Shown in pieces: positions 1 through 9,425 of a stretch of DNA of 9,787 nucleotides (position 1 is the first letter of the stretch; the number at the start of each line of letters is the position of its first letter). Source of the DNA: an uncultured Verrucomicrobiota bacterium (GTDB taxonomy: Bacteria; Verrucomicrobiota; Kiritimatiellia; RFP12; UBA1067); NCBI GenBank assembly GCA_946631535.1, contig CAMPAF010000097.1:1-9787 (forward strand). The letters are read 5' to 3'. The notes beneath the pieces are model-generated. The model saw nothing but the letters and a program-made list of their open reading frames with translations, did not search any database and was not told the DNA's origin. A program made the translations under genes and the position numbers.

Positions 1-2856
1 GACTGGGACGACCTCATCCGCTTCGCCGCCGACGGCTGCGCGGCGCGCGGCCTCTCGTTCAAGATGCAGAACTGCCCCGGCTGGTCTATGAGCGGCGGCC
101 CGTGGATCGCTCCGTCGAACGCCATGCGCAATCTCACCTACTCGCGCACGGACGTGACTGGCGGCAAGCCCTTGAAGCTGTCGCTGCCAGTTCCCGACTG
201 GCAGATGGAATCGCGCCTGAAAGCTGAAGACCTCGACTACCACGACCTCTTCGTGCTCGCGTTCCCCACGCCACCTGGCGATACGCCGGGATCTTATGAG
301 ACGAAGCCGAAGGCGCGCACGGACAAGGACGGCGTGCTGAAGCTCGTCTACCGCTTCGACAAGCCGATGGCGTTCCGTTCGGTGGCGCTGCCGTCGCCGC
401 GCCAGATGAACCACGACTGGGCGTACGACCCCGGCGTGACGGTCTCGGTCCGTGGCGTCTCGGCGGAAGTGCCGCAAGGCTGCTGGCAGGATGGCGTGCC
501 GTTCACGATGGCGCTCGGCGACATGCCGCCGTCCGCGGAATGGACTGTGGAGATCAAGCACGCGCATCCGGTCAACGTCCCGTTCGTGCGTTTCCGCACG
601 GGCGCACGCCTCCACAACTGGGAAGGCAAGGCCGGCTGGGTGCTCCGCGGACTGGGAGGGTCGCGCTCCTGCGCGACCGCCGCCGAGACGGCGGCCATAC
701 ATGCGGACGCGCAGGAGCGCGTCCCTCCCGGTTGCATCCGCGGTGATGTGGTGTTGGACCTGACGGACAAGTTGAAGGACGGCGTACTTGAGTGGGCGCC
801 GCCGGCGGGGAAATGGACGATCCTTCGCATCGGCCACGTGAACAACGGCACGCGCAATGGCCCTGCGCCGAAGGAGGCGACGGGCTGGGAGTGCAACAAG
901 ATGGATCGCGCAGGCATCGACGCGCACTTCGCCGCCTACATCGGCCGTCTCGCCAAGGGACCGCTCGCGGGCGGCAAGCTTAAGGGCTTCGTGGTGGACA
1001 GCTGGGAGTGCCGCCGCCAGACCTGGACGCGCTCGCTGGAATCCGACTTCCGCGCGGCGCGCGGCTACGACTTCCGCAGGAAGCTGCCGGCCGTCTTCGG
1101 CTGGGTGATCGACTCGCCGGAGAAGACGGAAGACTTCCTGCGCGACTGGCGCCAGACGCTCGGCGAGCTGGTGGAGAAGAACTACTACGCGCGCATGGAC
1201 GAGCTGGCGCGCGCGTACGGCATGACGGCGCAGTACGAGACGGCGTTCGGCGACGTGCTGCCGGGCGACCTGATGGCGTTCTGGAAGTACTGCGACACGC
1301 CGATGTGCGAGTTCTGGTTCCCGCGCGCCGAGTCGAGCGTGGGGCAGGACGACTTCAAACCGATCATCCCGTGCGCGTCGGCGGCGCACGTGTACGGCAA
1401 GGGACGCGTGGCGGCAGAGGCCTGCACGTCGATGCGCCTCAAGTGGGACGAGGACTTCAAGAACCTGAAGGGCACGATCAACCACGCGTTCGCGCGCGGC
1501 GTGACGCACCTCGTGTTCCACACCTACACGCACAACCCGCGCACGGACTGGCTGCCGCCGGGGTCGAGCTTCGGTCACTGCATCGGCACGCCGTTCATCC
1601 GCGGCCAGGCCTGGTGGAAGCACATGCCGGAGTTCACGAAGTGGGTTGCGCGGTGCGAGACGATGCTCGAGGCAGGTAAGCCAGTGAACGACATCCTGTG
1701 GTACCTCGGCGAGGAGGTCGGCCACAAGCCGAGCGAGCGCAGTCCGTTTCCGCCCGGATACAAGTACGACTACGTGAACAAGGACGCGCTCTTGAACCGC
1801 ATCTCCGTGAAGGACGGGCTCTTCACGACGCCGGAGGGCGTGACGTGGAAGGTGCTGTGGGTGCCGGAGCGCAGGTGGATGTCGGACGCCGTGAAGGCCA
1901 AGCTGTCACATTTCATAAAATGCGGTAGTCGTGTGGTCTACGGTTCGGCGAAGGATGTCGTCGAGGGAATCAAGCCAGACGTGACGTGTGCGGGCGACGG
2001 ACCGTCCGACTGGCGGAAGGGGGAACGGCCCGTCGAGTGGCTGCACCGGCGCGACGCCACGGCGGACTGGTATTTCGTGTCGGCGAACGGCATGGACCCG
2101 TACTCGGGAGAGGTGACGTTCCGTGCGGAAGGGGACGTAACCGTGTGGGATCCCGTGACAGGCAAATGCTACGCGCCGGAGATTCCGCACGTGGAGGAAG
2201 GCAGCACGACGGTCAAGCTCGACCTCGCGTCCGCAGAATGCGTGTTCGTGGTGTTCAGTCGGGGAGGGTCGCAGTTTACTGCGACCGCAACGGGAGGGTC
2301 GCGCTCCTGCGCGACCGCCGCCGAGACGGCGGTTCCCCATGCGGACGCAACAAGTTGCGTCCCTCCCGTTTCGCTGCGCGACTGGACCCTCTCGTTCCCT
2401 GCCGGCTGGGGCGCGCCGGCGTCGCTCAAGCTTGACAAGCTCGCATCTTGGACGGAACTGCCGCTCGGCGAGGAAGGCCGCCACTTCTCTGGCACGGCCA
2501 CGTACACGGCCACTTTCACCTGTGCGGACGCGCGGGAGCGCGTCCCTCCCGCCAGCAATGCCGTTTCGGCGCTGACGCTCGACCTTGGCGAGGTGGAGAC
2601 CGTCGCGGACGTGTTCGTGAACGGCAAGAAGGTGCGTACGCTCTGGGCTCCGCCATACCGTTGCGCGATCGGCGAGTTCGTGAAGGACGGCGCGAACGAA
2701 CTGCGCGTGGACGTGACAACCACGTGGTTCAACCGGCTCGCGTACGACGCGGGGCTGCAAGAAAAGGAACGCAAGACATGGACGATCGCTGGCCCGAAGA
2801 AGGGCACGCCGCCGAAGCCCGCCGGGCTGCTTGGCCCCGTATCGCTGTGCCGGTAG
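1..2856 (+). CDS. GH106-family alpha-L-rhamnosidase, 5'-truncated by window start
   Basis: The reading frame is open from base 1, so the Met at 64 is internal and the true start lies upstream. 951 residues are visible. GH106 enzymes hydrolyse alpha-L-rhamnosyl linkages, for example in pectins and other rhamnose-rich glycans. Family hallmarks seen in order: CPGWSMSGGPWI (residues ~25-36), DSWECRRQTWTRS with a following RGYDF, the long helix-rich block to YETAFGDVLPGDL, PMCEFW, AAHVYGKGRVAAEACTS, FHTYTHNP, GTPFIRGQAWWKHMPEF, and GKPVNDILWYLGEE. The C-terminus is a galactose-binding-like beta-sandwich (LDLGEVETVADVFVNGKKVR) ending in GLLGPVSL, typical of the family. About 150 N-terminal residues including any signal peptide are missing. 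The gene carries three in-frame palindromic repeat insertions (fragment residues about 219-243, 755-789 and 842-850), which add low-complexity Ala/Thr/Cys-rich peptides absent from the family pattern. The next glycosidase starts 45 nt downstream. The family assignment is firm; the exact substrate is inferred. Confidence 0.9.
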   Translation, partial: DWDDLIRFAADGCAARGLSFKMQNCPGWSMSGGPWIAPSNAMRNLTYSRTDVTGGKPLKLSLPVPDWQMESRLKAEDLDYHDLFVLAFPTPPGDTPGSYETKPKARTDKDGVLKLVYRFDKPMAFRSVALPSPRQMNHDWAYDPGVTVSVRGVSAEVPQGCWQDGVPFTMALGDMPPSAEWTVEIKHAHPVNVPFVRFRTGARLHNWEGKAGWVLRGLGGSRSCATAAETAAIHADAQERVPPGCIRGDVVLDLTDKLKDGVLEWAPPAGKWTILRIGHVNNGTRNGPAPKEATGWECNKMDRAGIDAHFAAYIGRLAKGPLAGGKLKGFVVDSWECRRQTWTRSLESDFRAARGYDFRRKLPAVFGWVIDSPEKTEDFLRDWRQTLGELVEKNYYARMDELARAYGMTAQYETAFGDVLPGDLMAFWKYCDTPMCEFWFPRAESSVGQDDFKPIIPCASAAHVYGKGRVAAEACTSMRLKWDEDFKNLKGTINHAFARGVTHLVFHTYTHNPRTDWLPPGSSFGHCIGTPFIRGQAWWKHMPEFTKWVARCETMLEAGKPVNDILWYLGEEVGHKPSERSPFPPGYKYDYVNKDALLNRISVKDGLFTTPEGVTWKVLWVPERRWMSDAVKAKLSHFIKCGSRVVYGSAKDVVEGIKPDVTCAGDGPSDWRKGERPVEWLHRRDATADWYFVSANGMDPYSGEVTFRAEGDVTVWDPVTGKCYAPEIPHVEEGSTTVKLDLASAECVFVVFSRGGSQFTATATGGSRSCATAAETAVPHADATSCVPPVSLRDWTLSFPAGWGAPASLKLDKLASWTELPLGEEGRHFSGTATYTATFTCADARERVPPASNAVSALTLDLGEVETVADVFVNGKKVRTLWAPPYRCAIGEFVKDGANELRVDVTTTWFNRLAYDAGLQEKERKTWTIAGPKKGTPPKPAGLLGPVSLCR
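654..729 (+). repeat. 76-nt REPIN-like coding palindromic element, copy 1
   Basis: The element has three hairpins in a row. Hairpin A (stem GGTCGCGC 659-666 / GCGCGACC 671-678, loop TCCT) is preceded by the tag that gives GGGAGGG at 654-660. Hairpin B is GCCGCCG 679-685 / CGGCGGC 689-695 with loop AGA. Hairpin C is GGACGCGC 705-712 / GCGCGTCC 717-724 with loop AGGA, followed by CTCCC. The ends 654-678 and 705-729 are inverted repeats of each other, with 23 of 25 positions matching. It lies inside the rhamnosidase gene and is translated as a GGSRSCATAAETA-type insertion between VLRGL and CIRGDVVLDL. No stop codon occurs in any of the six frames. The architecture (two inverted tagged palindromes around a spacer) is that of a REPIN; the name is by analogy, and no flanking target duplication is obvious. 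Confidence 0.85.
2262..2367 (+). repeat. REPIN-like coding palindromic element, copy 2, with an extra unit
   Basis: Bases 2292-2367 are a 76-nt copy with the same layout and length as the one at 654-729. Hairpin A (2297-2304/2309-2316, loop TCCT) is identical to copy 1, the central hairpin core at 2317-2332 is identical, and hairpin C is GGACGCAA 2343-2350 / TTGCGTCC 2355-2362 with loop CAAG. An additional tagged unit precedes it, starting exactly 30 nt upstream: GGGAGGG 2262-2268, stem GGTCGCAG 2267-2274 / CTGCGACC 2279-2286, loop TTTA. The whole stretch is in frame and separates VFVVFSR from LRDWTLSFPAGW, which looks like a linker before the C-terminal beta-sandwich of the rhamnosidase. Confidence 0.85.
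2526..2550 (+). repeat. Solo 25-nt unit of the coding palindromic element, copy 3
   Basis: This is a single right-hand unit: stem GGACGCGC 2526-2533 / GCGCGTCC 2538-2545, loop GGGA, then CTCCC 2546-2550. It is preceded by TGTGC where the full copies have CATGC. No A or B hairpin accompanies it, so it is either a lone unit or the remnant of a deleted full element. It is in the same codon phase as the other copies and encodes ADARERVPP, close to ADAQERVPP of copy 1. It lies in a loop between two strands of the C-terminal beta-sandwich of the rhamnosidase. Confidence 0.75.
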
Positions 2857-5625: not shown

Positions 5626-6882
5626 ATGAAAGCATGTACTACTTTGCTTGTTACGGCCCTTGCGCTGACTTTCGCGGCGGGGGCGGTGGACCTCACGGAG
5701 CCGCTTGCCGTCTCCAACGTCCGCTTCTCGCAGGACCGCGCCACGCAGCTGGTGACGGTGAACTACGCGCTCGCCAACCAGGGTGAGCCGGCGTACGTGG
5801 CGCTGGGCGTGCTGACGAACGGCGTCACCATCGGGATGCAGCACGTCCGGACCGTCGCGGGCGACGTCTCGCAGCGGGGGCTGGACGTTCTCGCGCGGGG
5901 CGCCGTGCCGGACGACGGCAACGAAAAGACGATCGTGTGGGACGCCCACCGGGACTGGCGCGGCAACCTCGGCAGCAACGTGACGGTGGAGGTCTCGGCC
6001 TGGTACACCAATGCGCCTCCAATCGTCTACATGGTGGTGGACCTGAGCGGGGGCACGGCGGCTGAACGGTATCCGGTTTCGCTTACGACTGCGGTGCCCG
6101 ATCCCGCAGATGTCTCCTGCGTCTCCAACAAGCTCTGGCTGCGCTACATCCCCGCCGGCACGTTCACGCAGGGCAGTCCCGAGACCGAGGCGGGGCGTGA
6201 CACGACGGGGCGCGAGACGCAGCATCAGGTCACGCTCACGAAGCCGTTCTACGCCGGCGTGTTCGAGCTCACGCGGGCGCAGTATCGGCTCGTGATGGGA
6301 AGCGATCCCGGCGACGGCGAGACGATGACCTGCCCCGTGAACAAGGTGAAGTTCTACGACTTCGTCGGCACCAACATCAATCCCGCCGTCTCCAACACGG
6401 TGGCCGCCGGCACGTTCCTCGCGACGATCCGCGAGAAGACCGGGTTGCTCCTCAACCTGCCGACCGACGCGCAATGGGAATACGCCTGCCGCGCGGGCAC
6501 GACCGGGCTCTACAACGTGGAGACGAACGCGACGGTCACGATCGACGACCTCGCCTGGTACTACGGGAACGCGTCGGGCAAGGTCCATCCCGTTGGACAG
6601 AAGCGGCCGAACGCCTGGGGACTTTACGACATGCACGGCAACGTGCTCGAGTTCTGCCGGGAGCGTTTGAACGCGAATATGGGCTCTGGCGCGCGGACGG
6701 ATCCTGTCAACACGGGGACGAGCAGCGGATTCGTGATTCGCGGCGGGTATTTCGGCGACGGGGACGCCAACTGCCGTTCGGCCCGGCGCGGTTGGCGTGC
6801 GCCGAGCGAGGCGGATCCATCCGGATGGTATGGCGGCCAAGGGCAAAACGACGGCTTCCGCCTCTGGCTGACCTTGGAATGA
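5626..6882 (+). CDS. Secreted SUMF1/FGE-sulfatase-domain protein, paralogue 1
   Basis: 418 aa, with AAGGAG 7 nt before the ATG. The signal peptide ends near residue 20 (FAAGA). Residues ~22-130 form a beta-rich domain (SQDRATQLVTVNYALANQGEPAYV, then TIVWDAHRDWRGNLGSNVTVEVSAWYTN), which resembles an Ig/FlgD-like fold. The FGE-sulfatase fold follows from LWLRYIPAGTF to the C-terminus, with HQVTLTKPFYAGVFELTRAQY, W284EYACRAGT, Y334DMHGNVLE and R372GG. True formylglycine-generating enzymes carry two copper-binding cysteines after RGG. Here the position 6 after the Arg is Asp and only Cys383 remains (NCRSA), so sulfatase activation is doubtful. A ligand-binding or structural role outside the cytoplasm is inferred. 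It heads three tandem paralogues, follows the small secreted gene by 16 nt, and no sulfatase gene is in the window. Confidence 0.85.
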   Translation: MKACTTLLVTALALTFAAGAVDLTEPLAVSNVRFSQDRATQLVTVNYALANQGEPAYVALGVLTNGVTIGMQHVRTVAGDVSQRGLDVLARGAVPDDGNEKTIVWDAHRDWRGNLGSNVTVEVSAWYTNAPPIVYMVVDLSGGTAAERYPVSLTTAVPDPADVSCVSNKLWLRYIPAGTFTQGSPETEAGRDTTGRETQHQVTLTKPFYAGVFELTRAQYRLVMGSDPGDGETMTCPVNKVKFYDFVGTNINPAVSNTVAAGTFLATIREKTGLLLNLPTDAQWEYACRAGTTGLYNVETNATVTIDDLAWYYGNASGKVHPVGQKRPNAWGLYDMHGNVLEFCRERLNANMGSGARTDPVNTGTSSGFVIRGGYFGDGDANCRSARRGWRAPSEADPSGWYGGQGQNDGFRLWLTLE

Positions 6883-6899
6883 ACGGCGGCGACCCGCGA

Positions 6900-6910
6900 G
6901 AAAGGAACCT
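6900..6910 (+). promoter_or_regulatory. Shine-Dalgarno block GAAAGGAACCT of SUMF1 paralogue 2
   Basis: AAAGGA at 6901-6906 lies 8 nt before ATG 6915. The same 11-nt block recurs at 8160-8170 before paralogue 3, so this initiation region was copied along with the gene. It decides the start at 6915 over ATG 6879, which overlaps the previous stop as ATGA but lacks a ribosome site and would place 12 charged residues before the signal peptide. Confidence 0.75.
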
Positions 6911-6914
6911 CGAT

Positions 6915-8147
6915 ATGAAAACATCCAGATTCGCATGTCTTTCCGTGCTGCTGCCGCTGATGGCGGGGGCGGCCACGGTCGGCGACGTGTCGTTCCGTCA
7001 GGATCGCGGCACGCGCGTGGTGACCGTGAACTACACGCTCTCGAACGAGGGCAACCCGGCGTACGTGACGATGGAGGTGCTGGACGGCGACGGCGTCGCC
7101 ATCGCGGCCGCCAACCTGAACATCAAGACGGCCACCGGCGACATCTCGCAGATCGACGGACACGCCGTGCCCGACGACGGCGCGACGAAGACGATCACGT
7201 GGCCGATCATGTCCGACTGCCCGGGATTGCTGCTCCCCAACGCGTCGATCAGGATCACGGCCCATCCCGTGGACAATCCGCCGCCCAAGCTCGAGTACAT
7301 CTACATCGATCTGAGCGGCGGGCCGGACGCGGCGTCGTATCCGGTGGCGACGTCGTTCGCCGCGCCCGACCCCACGGACGTCACGTGCGTCTCGAACAAG
7401 CTGTGGCTGCGGCGCATCGAGGCCGGCACGTTCACGCAGGGCAGCCCCTCGACGGAGGTGGGGCGTACTTCGAATCGCGAGGCACAGCATCAGGTGACGC
7501 TCACCAAGCCGTTCTTCGCCGGCGTGTTCGAGGTGACGCGCGCGCAGTACCGGCTCGTGATGGGGAGCGACCCCGGCAACGGTTCGTCGCTCACATGCCC
7601 CGTGAACAACCTGATGCTTTACATGCTCGTCGGCGAAGACATCAATCCAGCCGTCTCCAATACGGTGGCGGAAGGCACGTTCTTCGCGAAGATCCGCGAG
7701 AAGACCGGGATGTTCTTCAACCTGCCGACGGACGCGCAGTGGGAGTACGCCTGCCGCGCGGGCACGACCACGCCCTACAACGTGGAGACGAACGCGGCGG
7801 TTGCGCTGAGTAGCATTGCCTGGTACAAAGAGAATGCGTCGAGCAAGGTACAGCCGGTCGGACAGAAGACGCCGAACGCCTGGGGCCTTTACGACATGCA
7901 CGGCAACGTGTTTGAGTTTTGCAGGGAAAGGATAGTTGAGAATATGGGGGCGACAGCCCGGACGGATCCGCTCTACAAGGGAGAAGCGGGAGCCGGTTTT
8001 GTGATACGGGGTGGAAGTGCGTGGCAGAACGCGGCGACCTGCCGTTCCGCGCAGCGCAACTGGCGTGCGGCGTCGCCCTCGGCGTCGGGTTACAGTGCGG
8101 GCAATACTCCCAACGACGGCTTCCGCCTGTGGTTGACGCTGGAATGA
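6915..8147 (+). CDS. Secreted SUMF1/FGE-sulfatase-domain protein, paralogue 2
   Basis: 410 aa from ATG 6915; an open frame extends upstream but only this start gives a ribosome site and a signal peptide (KTSRFACLSVLLPLMAGAA, cut near residue 20). The N-terminal beta domain (FRQDRGTRVVTVNYTLSNEGNPAYV, TITWPIMSDCPGLLLPNASIRITAHP) is the most divergent of the three paralogues. The SUMF1 domain is close to paralogue 1: GTFTQGSP, HQVTLTKPFFAGVFEVTRAQYRLVMGSDPG, NLPTDAQWEYACRAGTT, YDMHGNVFEFC, R365GGS, Cys376RSAQR and the ending NDGFRLWLTLE. The first FGE cysteine position is Gln. It begins 32 nt after paralogue 1. The stretch 7911-7947 uses AT-richer and otherwise rare codons (TTT, AGG, ATA, GTT), unlike the surrounding sequence. 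A role as an exported binding or structural protein is inferred. Confidence 0.85.
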   Translation: MKTSRFACLSVLLPLMAGAATVGDVSFRQDRGTRVVTVNYTLSNEGNPAYVTMEVLDGDGVAIAAANLNIKTATGDISQIDGHAVPDDGATKTITWPIMSDCPGLLLPNASIRITAHPVDNPPPKLEYIYIDLSGGPDAASYPVATSFAAPDPTDVTCVSNKLWLRRIEAGTFTQGSPSTEVGRTSNREAQHQVTLTKPFFAGVFEVTRAQYRLVMGSDPGNGSSLTCPVNNLMLYMLVGEDINPAVSNTVAEGTFFAKIREKTGMFFNLPTDAQWEYACRAGTTTPYNVETNAAVALSSIAWYKENASSKVQPVGQKTPNAWGLYDMHGNVFEFCRERIVENMGATARTDPLYKGEAGAGFVIRGGSAWQNAATCRSAQRNWRAASPSASGYSAGNTPNDGFRLWLTLE

Positions 8148-8159
8148 CGGCGCATGCAT

Positions 8160-8170
8160 GAAAGGAACCT
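8160..8170 (+). promoter_or_regulatory. Shine-Dalgarno block GAAAGGAACCT of SUMF1 paralogue 3
   Basis: AAAGGA at 8161-8166 lies 8 nt before ATG 8175. The block is identical to 6900-6910 and the next bases are nearly so (CGATATGAAA versus TGAAATGAAA). It favours ATG 8175 over the in-frame ATG 8154. Confidence 0.75.
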
Positions 8171-8174
8171 TGAA

Positions 8175-9425
8175 ATGAAAAAATCCTCATTCGCATATCT
8201 GTTGCTGGTGTTGCCGTTCGCGGCGGGGGCTGCAAACGTGACGGCGCCGATCGCCGTGTCCGGCACGCGCTTTTCGCAGGATCGTCAGACGCAGAAGGTG
8301 ACGGTGAAGTACGCGCTCGCCAACCAGGGCGAGCCGGCCTGGGTGACGATGGACGTGCTGACGAACGGCGTCTCGATCGGAATGCAGTACGTCAAGACGG
8401 TGCGCGGCGACATCTCGCAGCGCGGCGCCGATTTCATGGCGAGCGATCCCGTGGCCGACGACGGGCAGGAGAAGACGATCGTGTGGGACGCGCGCAAGGA
8501 CTGGCCCGGCAACATCGGCAGCAACGCCAGCGTCGTGGTTTCCGCCTGGTACACCAACTTCGTGCCCGAGGTGTACATGGTGGTGGACCTGAGCGAGGGA
8601 CCCGAGGCGACGCGCTATCCCGTGGCGCTCACGCGCGAGGTCCCCGATCCGGCGGACCTCTCCTGCGTGTCGAACCGTCTGTGGCTCAGGTACATCCCGG
8701 CCGGCACGTTCAAGATGGGGGCGTTTCCGGACGACGAGGGGCACAACTACAACGACAACACGCGAAACCGCGAGCATCTCCATCAGGTGACGCTCACCAA
8801 GGCGTTCTACGCGGGCGTGTTCGAGGTGACGCGCGCGCAGTACCGGCTCGTGCTGGGTGATGCGTCGGACACGTCGTCTGGAAGCCCGCTTCGCCCCGTG
8901 AGCGGCAAGAAGCTGAACGAGCTGTGGGGCGAGGGCTTCGATCCGTCGATGTCGAACGACGTGGCCGAGACCACGTTCTTCTACGCGCTGCGCCAGAAGA
9001 CGGGCCTCCTCTTCACGCTGCCGACCGACGCGCAATGGGAGTACGCCTGCCGCGCGGGGACGGTTACGCCCTACAACGTGGATACGAACTTCCTCGCGCT
9101 GGCGGACGTGGCCTGGCATTCAAAGAACGCGGCGAGCAGCACGCATCCGGTGGGGCAGAAGGCGCCGAACGCCTGGGGGCTCTACGACATGCACGGGAAC
9201 GTGTTCGAACCGTGCCGCGACTTCCTCGTGCACGACCTGGGAGCGAGTTCCGTCACGGATCCGCTGAAACGCCGGAACGGCACTTCCGGTCTCGGACAGG
9301 TGATCCGCGGCGGTTCCTACGTGACGGTGCCCCAGCAGATCCGCTCGCCCTACCGGGGCTGGCGCGCGATGGACGGAAGCTCGCCCAACGAGGACGGCAT
9401 CCGCGTGTTCCTGACGCTCGAGTGA
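8175..9425 (+). CDS. Secreted SUMF1/FGE-sulfatase-domain protein, paralogue 3
   Basis: 416 aa, starting 27 nt after paralogue 2. The signal peptide is KKSSFAYLLLVLPFAAGAA (cut near residue 20). The N-terminal beta domain matches paralogue 1 closely (SQDRQTQKVTVKYALANQGEPAWV, LTNGVSIGMQYV, VVVSAWYTN). Its SUMF1 domain is the most divergent: it keeps the common family motif GTFKMG, where paralogues 1 and 2 have GTFTQG, has an acidic/Asn-rich insertion (DDEGHNYNDN), and ends EDGIRVFLTLE. WEYACRAGT, YDMHGNVFE and R378GGSY are present. Both FGE cysteine positions are gone (Thr at +6, Ile389 at +11), so formylglycine-generating activity is very unlikely. It is probably the last gene of the operon, because a strong promoter for the next gene follows directly. 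Confidence 0.85.
   Translation: MKKSSFAYLLLVLPFAAGAANVTAPIAVSGTRFSQDRQTQKVTVKYALANQGEPAWVTMDVLTNGVSIGMQYVKTVRGDISQRGADFMASDPVADDGQEKTIVWDARKDWPGNIGSNASVVVSAWYTNFVPEVYMVVDLSEGPEATRYPVALTREVPDPADLSCVSNRLWLRYIPAGTFKMGAFPDDEGHNYNDNTRNREHLHQVTLTKAFYAGVFEVTRAQYRLVLGDASDTSSGSPLRPVSGKKLNELWGEGFDPSMSNDVAETTFFYALRQKTGLLFTLPTDAQWEYACRAGTVTPYNVDTNFLALADVAWHSKNAASSTHPVGQKAPNAWGLYDMHGNVFEPCRDFLVHDLGASSVTDPLKRRNGTSGLGQVIRGGSYVTVPQQIRSPYRGWRAMDGSSPNEDGIRVFLTLE

Follow-up and report, generated by a model that had tools for sequence, protein, structure and literature searches.

Repetitive extragenic palindromes (REPs) carry their usual location in their name, and the inside of a gene is commonly regarded as out of their reach. 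As far as the available portions of the cited papers go, REPs are mostly intergenic overall (PMC3733652), and in the REPIN/REP-RAYT system of Pseudomonas fluorescens SBW25 (REPIN, REP doublet forming a hairpin; RAYT, REP-associated tyrosine transposase) the 1,067 most abundant REP 16-mers include 14 that overlap genes (PMC3116915). The same portions describe in-frame intragenic REPs in several bacteria, the GTAG type being most numerous in the Verrucomicrobium Opitutus terrae (PMC3733652), and REPs lying in frame in subclass 2.4 tnpA_REP genes (RAYT group 4), whose hosts are Cyanobacteria, Bacteroidetes and various phyla and whose HUH motif is NH[IFV]H (PMC6006769). PMC3733652 also describes Rickettsia palindromic elements (RPEs), palindromic DNA that has entered many genes in frame. 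In-frame intragenic REPs and in-frame REPs in TnpA_REP genes are therefore already known. Here we analysed a 9,787-nt stretch of DNA (the window) from an uncultured Verrucomicrobiota bacterium (contig CAMPAF010000097.1), in which palindromic units lie in frame at three sites of a GH106 alpha-L-rhamnosidase gene. A preliminary description had implied that such insertion would be new outside Rickettsia, to which in-frame intragenic REPs are in fact not confined (PMC3733652; PMC6006769 for tnpA_REP genes). The units are a high-copy REPIN-like family of Kiritimatiellae, and very probably form the arms of a non-autonomous mobile element of the REPIN type, one that is compatible with reading frames and has its cognate RAYT elsewhere in the genome.

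A palindromic family inside genes

The host gene was identified by profile search (PF17132, E 1.6e-125); the best structural matches of the enzyme model were 6q2f and 5mqm, and the coding score was positive in the GH106 frame alone. Six 25-nt units, all starting at one codon position, had been described in this gene, and both points were borne out. Each unit is built from a GGGAG tag, an 8-bp stem and a 4-nt loop (Table 1), every tested stem pair was formed (7/7 in each unit), and the first base of all six falls on codon position 3. Segments 654–729 and 2292–2367 do have the common 76-nt layout reported for them (unit, central hairpin, inverted unit), which is that of a REPIN with its two inverted units and spacer, and their first 57 nt are 91% alike. 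The account of one element inserted three times needs amending: there are three insertion sites, but at the second a lone unit accompanies a REPIN, and the third has just one inverted unit. Segment 654–729 had no match among phage records.

When public genomes were scanned for exact matches to a 41-nt sequence, 12 stretches of DNA in five bins were returned. These were titled Verrucomicrobia, Lentisphaerae, Kiritimatiellae or uncultured bacterium and all belonged to one family group, in agreement with the host proposed earlier, a member of the Planctomycetes–Verrucomicrobia–Chlamydiae type. The record of one carrier gives goat omasum as its source, and bin names of the RUG type presumably denote rumen bins. 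The general unit pattern had 5, 269, 312, 222 and 102 matches in the five carrier genomes, and the reversed pattern 0–2. The copies thus run to hundreds per genome, as in REPINs, in G002 (269), G003 (312) and G004 (222), where the reversed pattern gave 0, 1 and 0, and the further copies that the preliminary description had anticipated are present. At least one match occurred in 54/114 family genomes, with 312, 269, 244, 222, 102 and 72 in the six richest.

Strict units numbered 189 in 2.27 Mb sampled from G002, G003 and G004, and reversal of these sequences left 0; together with the whole-genome counts, this means that the units are not a product of chance. Contigs 1–30 of G002 and 1–41 of G004 were sampled by number; the rest of G004 contig 22 was added in the knowledge that it holds the GH106 orthologue, and its units were counted. 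The 20 contigs of G003 included 7 from a list of unit-bearing contigs and 6 from the hits of other searches, so unit density in G003 is biased upwards. All counts rest on strict units. A looser regular expression was dropped and its counts left unused, as it found 174 units but also 7 in the reversed control, and took in a native stretch of DNA polymerase IV, which made strict units necessary. The two genes concerned (L099:13719-14868 and L132:5509-6658, DNA polymerase IV by sequence) are native and match it by chance.

Within this sample, 131/189 strict units lay inside genes, 57 were intergenic and 1 was at a gene edge (39/70, 29/42 and 63/77 inside genes in G002, G003 and G004, respectively). 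REPINs are expected to be mostly extragenic, and because placement here is mostly intragenic we call the family REPIN-like. The units formed 128 clusters, of which 89 were wholly intragenic and spread over 76 genes. This included genes for CTP synthase (insert in G002 only), an RsmB-type rRNA methyltransferase, pyruvate:ferredoxin oxidoreductase and an ABC ATPase. At least 30 codons separated 78/89 intragenic clusters from both gene ends, and both flanks scored as coding, in one shared frame, in 74 of the 78 clusters with enough gene on either side.

Table 1 Host gene, insertion sites and units in the window, with the unit-flanked RAYT loci of related genomes.
Feature	Position	Strand	Remarks
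GH106 alpha-L-rhamnosidase (host gene)	1..2856	+	5' end cut by window edge; frame open across all inserts
Site 1, full REPIN (two units, the second inverted, around a GC-rich central hairpin)	654..729	+	adds GGSRSCATAAETAAIHADAQERVPP
Unit 1, T-type, sense	654..678	+	
Unit 2, A-type, inverted	705..729	-	
Site 2, lone sense unit and full REPIN	2262..2367	+	variable linker preceding C-terminal beta domain
Unit 3	2262..2286	+	hairpin core AGTTTACT; L062, L063 and L064 have other cores here
Unit 4, T-type, sense	2292..2316	+	
Unit 5, A-type, inverted	2343..2367	-	core AACTTGTT, read in the orientation of the unit
Site 3, single inverted unit	2526..2550	-	adds ADARERVPP
Unit-flanked RAYT loci			L234, L235, L251, L233

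Elsewhere in the window, positions 5626–9425 hold three tandem paralogues of ~420 aa, with DNA blocks 69–89% alike; the two paralogues scanned, the first and third, match FGE-sulfatase (PF03781).

Reading frame, hairpins and orthologous sites

The count of placement and codon phase that had been proposed as a check gave a strong bias. Phase 2 was used by 69/89 intragenic clusters (P = 1.7e-17), a single phase by 30/31 multi-unit clusters and, taking one cluster per gene, phase 2 by 18/25, 13/18 and 27/33 in G002, G003 and G004, respectively. Neighbouring units were a multiple of 3 nt apart in 37/38 intragenic pairs versus 11/17 intergenic pairs. Polarity was also skewed. In phase 2, sense units were T-type in 37 cases versus A-type in 8, and antisense units A-type in 31 versus T-type in 10 (Fisher test, P = 8.6e-8; 8.0e-8 when limited to one per gene and orientation). 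The 18 tag-outward pairs within sampled genes comprised 15 with a T-type sense unit followed by an A-type antisense unit, 1 in the reverse arrangement and 2 of other base combinations.

A plausible, though not our favoured, account of these biases is that they arose from the choice of target site by the transposase, or from replication-strand bias, and not from selection on the encoded peptide. A stop codon occurs in 1/24 tested frames (four unit types in six orientation/phase combinations) and the other 23 are open, so stop avoidance alone cannot place 69/89 clusters in one phase. In addition, many of the RAYT relatives P0154–P0190 have HGRVALVAT-type peptides, which look like the family's unit read in another phase. 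Set against this account, a C at −1 and GC at +1/+2 are nearly all that stands out in the flanks, and these bases are taken as belonging to the element; the skew in polarity holds even within one phase.

The RNA fold computed for 654–729 had an energy of −64 kcal/mol versus a shuffle mean of −34.6 (z = −9.0). Compensatory stem changes were computed directly from 35 distinct intragenic units, in which the stem was 97.5% paired and its covariation was 0.418 versus 0.114 after shuffling (0/500 shuffles). Such strong covariation means that selection or copying preserves the hairpin DNA and not the peptide. Very stable RNA folds and stems conserved by compensatory change would also suit hairpins retained because, as mRNA structures, they regulate the genes that carry them, an explanation we regard as improbable. 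The distance of most clusters (78/89) from gene ends, the unrelated proteins and both orientations involved, and the varying hairpin cores at a single orthologous site all speak against it; an Rfam scan of the window at gathering scores gave no match, and recognition of the DNA by a RAYT predicts equal conservation of the stems.

At the protein level, the AlphaFold model of the window enzyme had a predicted local distance difference test score (pLDDT) of 84.9 and a predicted template modelling score of 0.88. Segments with pLDDT <50 were residues 221–238, 756–786 and 843–854, on the three inserts, and 26–31, and in the blocks of ten residues beside the inserts pLDDT was mostly 79–94. The three GH106 inserts are thus predicted to be disordered. 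Host proteins apparently carry the element peptides as floppy loops, in genes that appear intact and have gained whole codons.

Comparison of orthologous sequences indicates gain and turnover of units. The GH106 sites carry units in the window and in three relatives 90–96% identical. No unit is present at site 3 of L065 and L066, both 86–87% identical, or of L067–L070, which provides the presence and absence between close homologues that the preliminary description had looked to. L065 has a different palindrome family at sites 1 and 2, and in L066 the units at these two sites are degenerate, the one at site 1 being inverted. The L065 gene (L065:618-3401, the GH106 orthologue of G005) has the palindrome core ACGGGCGAGACGCCCGT and the peptide TGETPVVP at both sites. 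A unit-like peptide at site 3 was found in 3 of the 72 homologues with a locatable site (among 120 listed). Of the two outcomes named beforehand as telling against an element, no further copies and distant rhamnosidases with the same residues at the insert sites, neither was seen, the latter among the homologues scored. At one orthologous place four genomes had four different hairpin cores, and units are therefore replaced in place.

Length differences were compared by keeping the closest-anchored pairing alone for each cluster; overlapping loci of one genome appear as ‘same’ and were given no weight. For intragenic clusters, every nonzero between-genome difference listed was a multiple of 3, and intergenic differences included 43 and 38. 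For one intragenic cluster of the loose set, an alternative pairing gave 74 nt and the closer-anchored pairing 21 nt.

Decay of the carrier genes, or faulty assembly, is very improbable. The genomes are metagenome bins, but the GH106 frame is open with units in the window and in three separately binned genomes, the pyruvate:ferredoxin oxidoreductase gene has a same-length REPIN in G003 and G004, and orthologues differ by multiples of 3; the sharing of open frames by several genomes contradicts this reading. Least credible is that the units are native rhamnosidase repeats selected for protein function, as their frame and the like peptides at three sites might suggest, because site 3 is empty both in the orthologues 86–87% identical and at greater distance, other or degenerate palindromes occupy sites 1 and 2 in L065 and L066, and unit DNA is spread genome-wide, in 76 sampled genes; the empty site and this spread contradict such a reading.

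RAYT genes as candidate mobilisers

A Y1/RAYT transposase had been suggested as a likely partner, and RAYT genes flanked by the family's units, as expected of the cognate gene of a REPIN, were found in four genomes (G002, G003, G004 and G027). Each also carries 4–10 units in its own reading frame, all in phase 2, which occupy an N-terminal part and the loop that separates the HUH motif from the tyrosine motif. The RAYT of G002 matched NF047646 at 3.1e-20 and 74 bits, under the curated cut-off of 80. The nearest solved structure was 4er8 (E 0.0031), relative to which the extra length lies between 4er8 residues 78 and 93. The model of RAYT P0123 had a pLDDT of 53.6, with values <50 at residues 1–91, 102–109 and 192–243, the first and last of these being the unit-rich parts. 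Among the best 120 of 2236 RAYT homologues, a like arrangement was seen with other peptides, and 104 of the 115 with an HUH motif found had a 6-residue peptide common to the N-terminal part and the loop, a share biased by a query that itself held unit peptides. The unit-carrying RAYT is likely the mobiliser of the units.

Copying by this RAYT, an HUH/Y1 transposase encoded elsewhere in the genome, would proceed through single-stranded DNA hairpins. The units are free of stop codons in the frame used, and neighbours are mostly spaced by multiples of 3. Selection would then remove insertions that shift the frame or hit structured protein, and most surviving copies would be in-frame inserts that add disordered loops and are probably neutral for the enzyme.

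Several observations weigh against a mobile REPIN-type element that is compatible with reading frames. Transposition itself was not seen, and the tag is GGGAG, not the canonical GTAG/GTGG of REPINs. Unit density is ~4 times lower in genes, at 64 per Mb, than in intergenic DNA, at 251 per Mb, so genes are tolerated and not preferred; this lower density is expected if most genic insertions are purged. Coding-like flanks were present on both sides in 2/37 intergenic clusters, which might be broken genes, and gene calls came from a purpose-made codon-usage caller and not from standard annotation. The unit-carrying type of RAYT is established in four genomes only. In G005 (102 copies) and G034 (72), no RAYT with strict units was found among the part of the RAYT matches examined. 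Two other RAYT types, L060 (four units nearby) and L047, do not follow copy number across 114 genomes and were dropped as cognate candidates on the behaviour of their close homologues.

More tentatively, and with some doubt, we propose that in this lineage all levels of the RAYT-REPIN system are adapted to reading frames: non-autonomous copies are fixed in phase, length and polarity and thereby encode linker peptides that proteins tolerate, the RAYT frame is partly built from its own elements, and whole RAYT genes are embedded in frame in host enzymes. If true, this mobile DNA spreads as a protein-level passenger and not as an intergenic parasite.

Other palindromes and transposases were present in these genomes. 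A sister family with a GGTAGGG tag (GGTAGGGACGGCGTTCCATCGCCGTCC; L239 and L244) flanks another RAYT and sits inside its open frame. The REP-associated transposase family had 4 to 16 matches per genome at E 0.01 in G002–G005, G027 and G034, which suggests several parallel REP families. Uronate isomerase genes of G002 (L048:619-2778, minus strand; PF02614 match) and G043:C39 (L303) contain a whole Y1/RAYT transposase in frame. It is flanked by TGETPVVP / NGQDARCPS-type peptide repeats, another palindrome family, and homologues from G003, G005, G027, G037 and G111 are without it. A FAD-binding_2 protein of G002 (L055:646-2625, plus strand) also has an in-frame Y1 transposase, between ARGAPETCG repeats.

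Comparison with known systems

A literature search that covered few subscription journals, and the parts of papers available through it, returned no account of a family placed mostly in genes, of bias in codon phase, spacing or polarity, or of a metabolic enzyme with a RAYT in its frame. The family with these biases, and the whole RAYT in uronate isomerase, were thus not found described and are apparently new. With about two thirds of sampled copies in genes, mainly in one phase and polarity, the family offers a natural experiment on how protein structure filters mobile DNA and on how such DNA can create new protein segments. For annotation, peptides such as GGSRSCAT and ADAQERVPP in unrelated proteins are element-derived and should not be read as domains.

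As far as the accessible part of PMC3116915 describes it, the SBW25 system, like this family, has tagged palindromes in inverted pairs around a spacer, copy numbers in the hundreds and a RAYT gene that they flank, but differs in its tag (GTAG/GTGG there, GGGAG here) and in placement (14 of 1,067 16-mers overlapping genes there, 131/189 units in genes here). The GTAG REPs of Opitutus terrae are similar in forming in-frame singles and dimers in genes of a Planctomycetes–Verrucomicrobia–Chlamydiae bacterium, their dimers and groups encoding 20–30 amino acids; most REPs are intergenic there, however, and the available part of PMC3733652 does not deal with codon phase, polarity or spacing modulo 3. 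RPEs resemble the family as palindromic DNA in frame in many genes and differ in host phylum. We know of no transposase identified for RPEs. The RAYT described here has an in-frame REP between HUH and Y, as in TnpA_REP subclass 2.4, and LWQ and YVRNNP (V for I) where that subclass has WQ and YIxNNP. It differs from subclass 2.4 in having DHIH in place of NH[IFV]H and a REPIN-built N-terminal part, and in that most sampled genomic copies of its units lie inside other genes.

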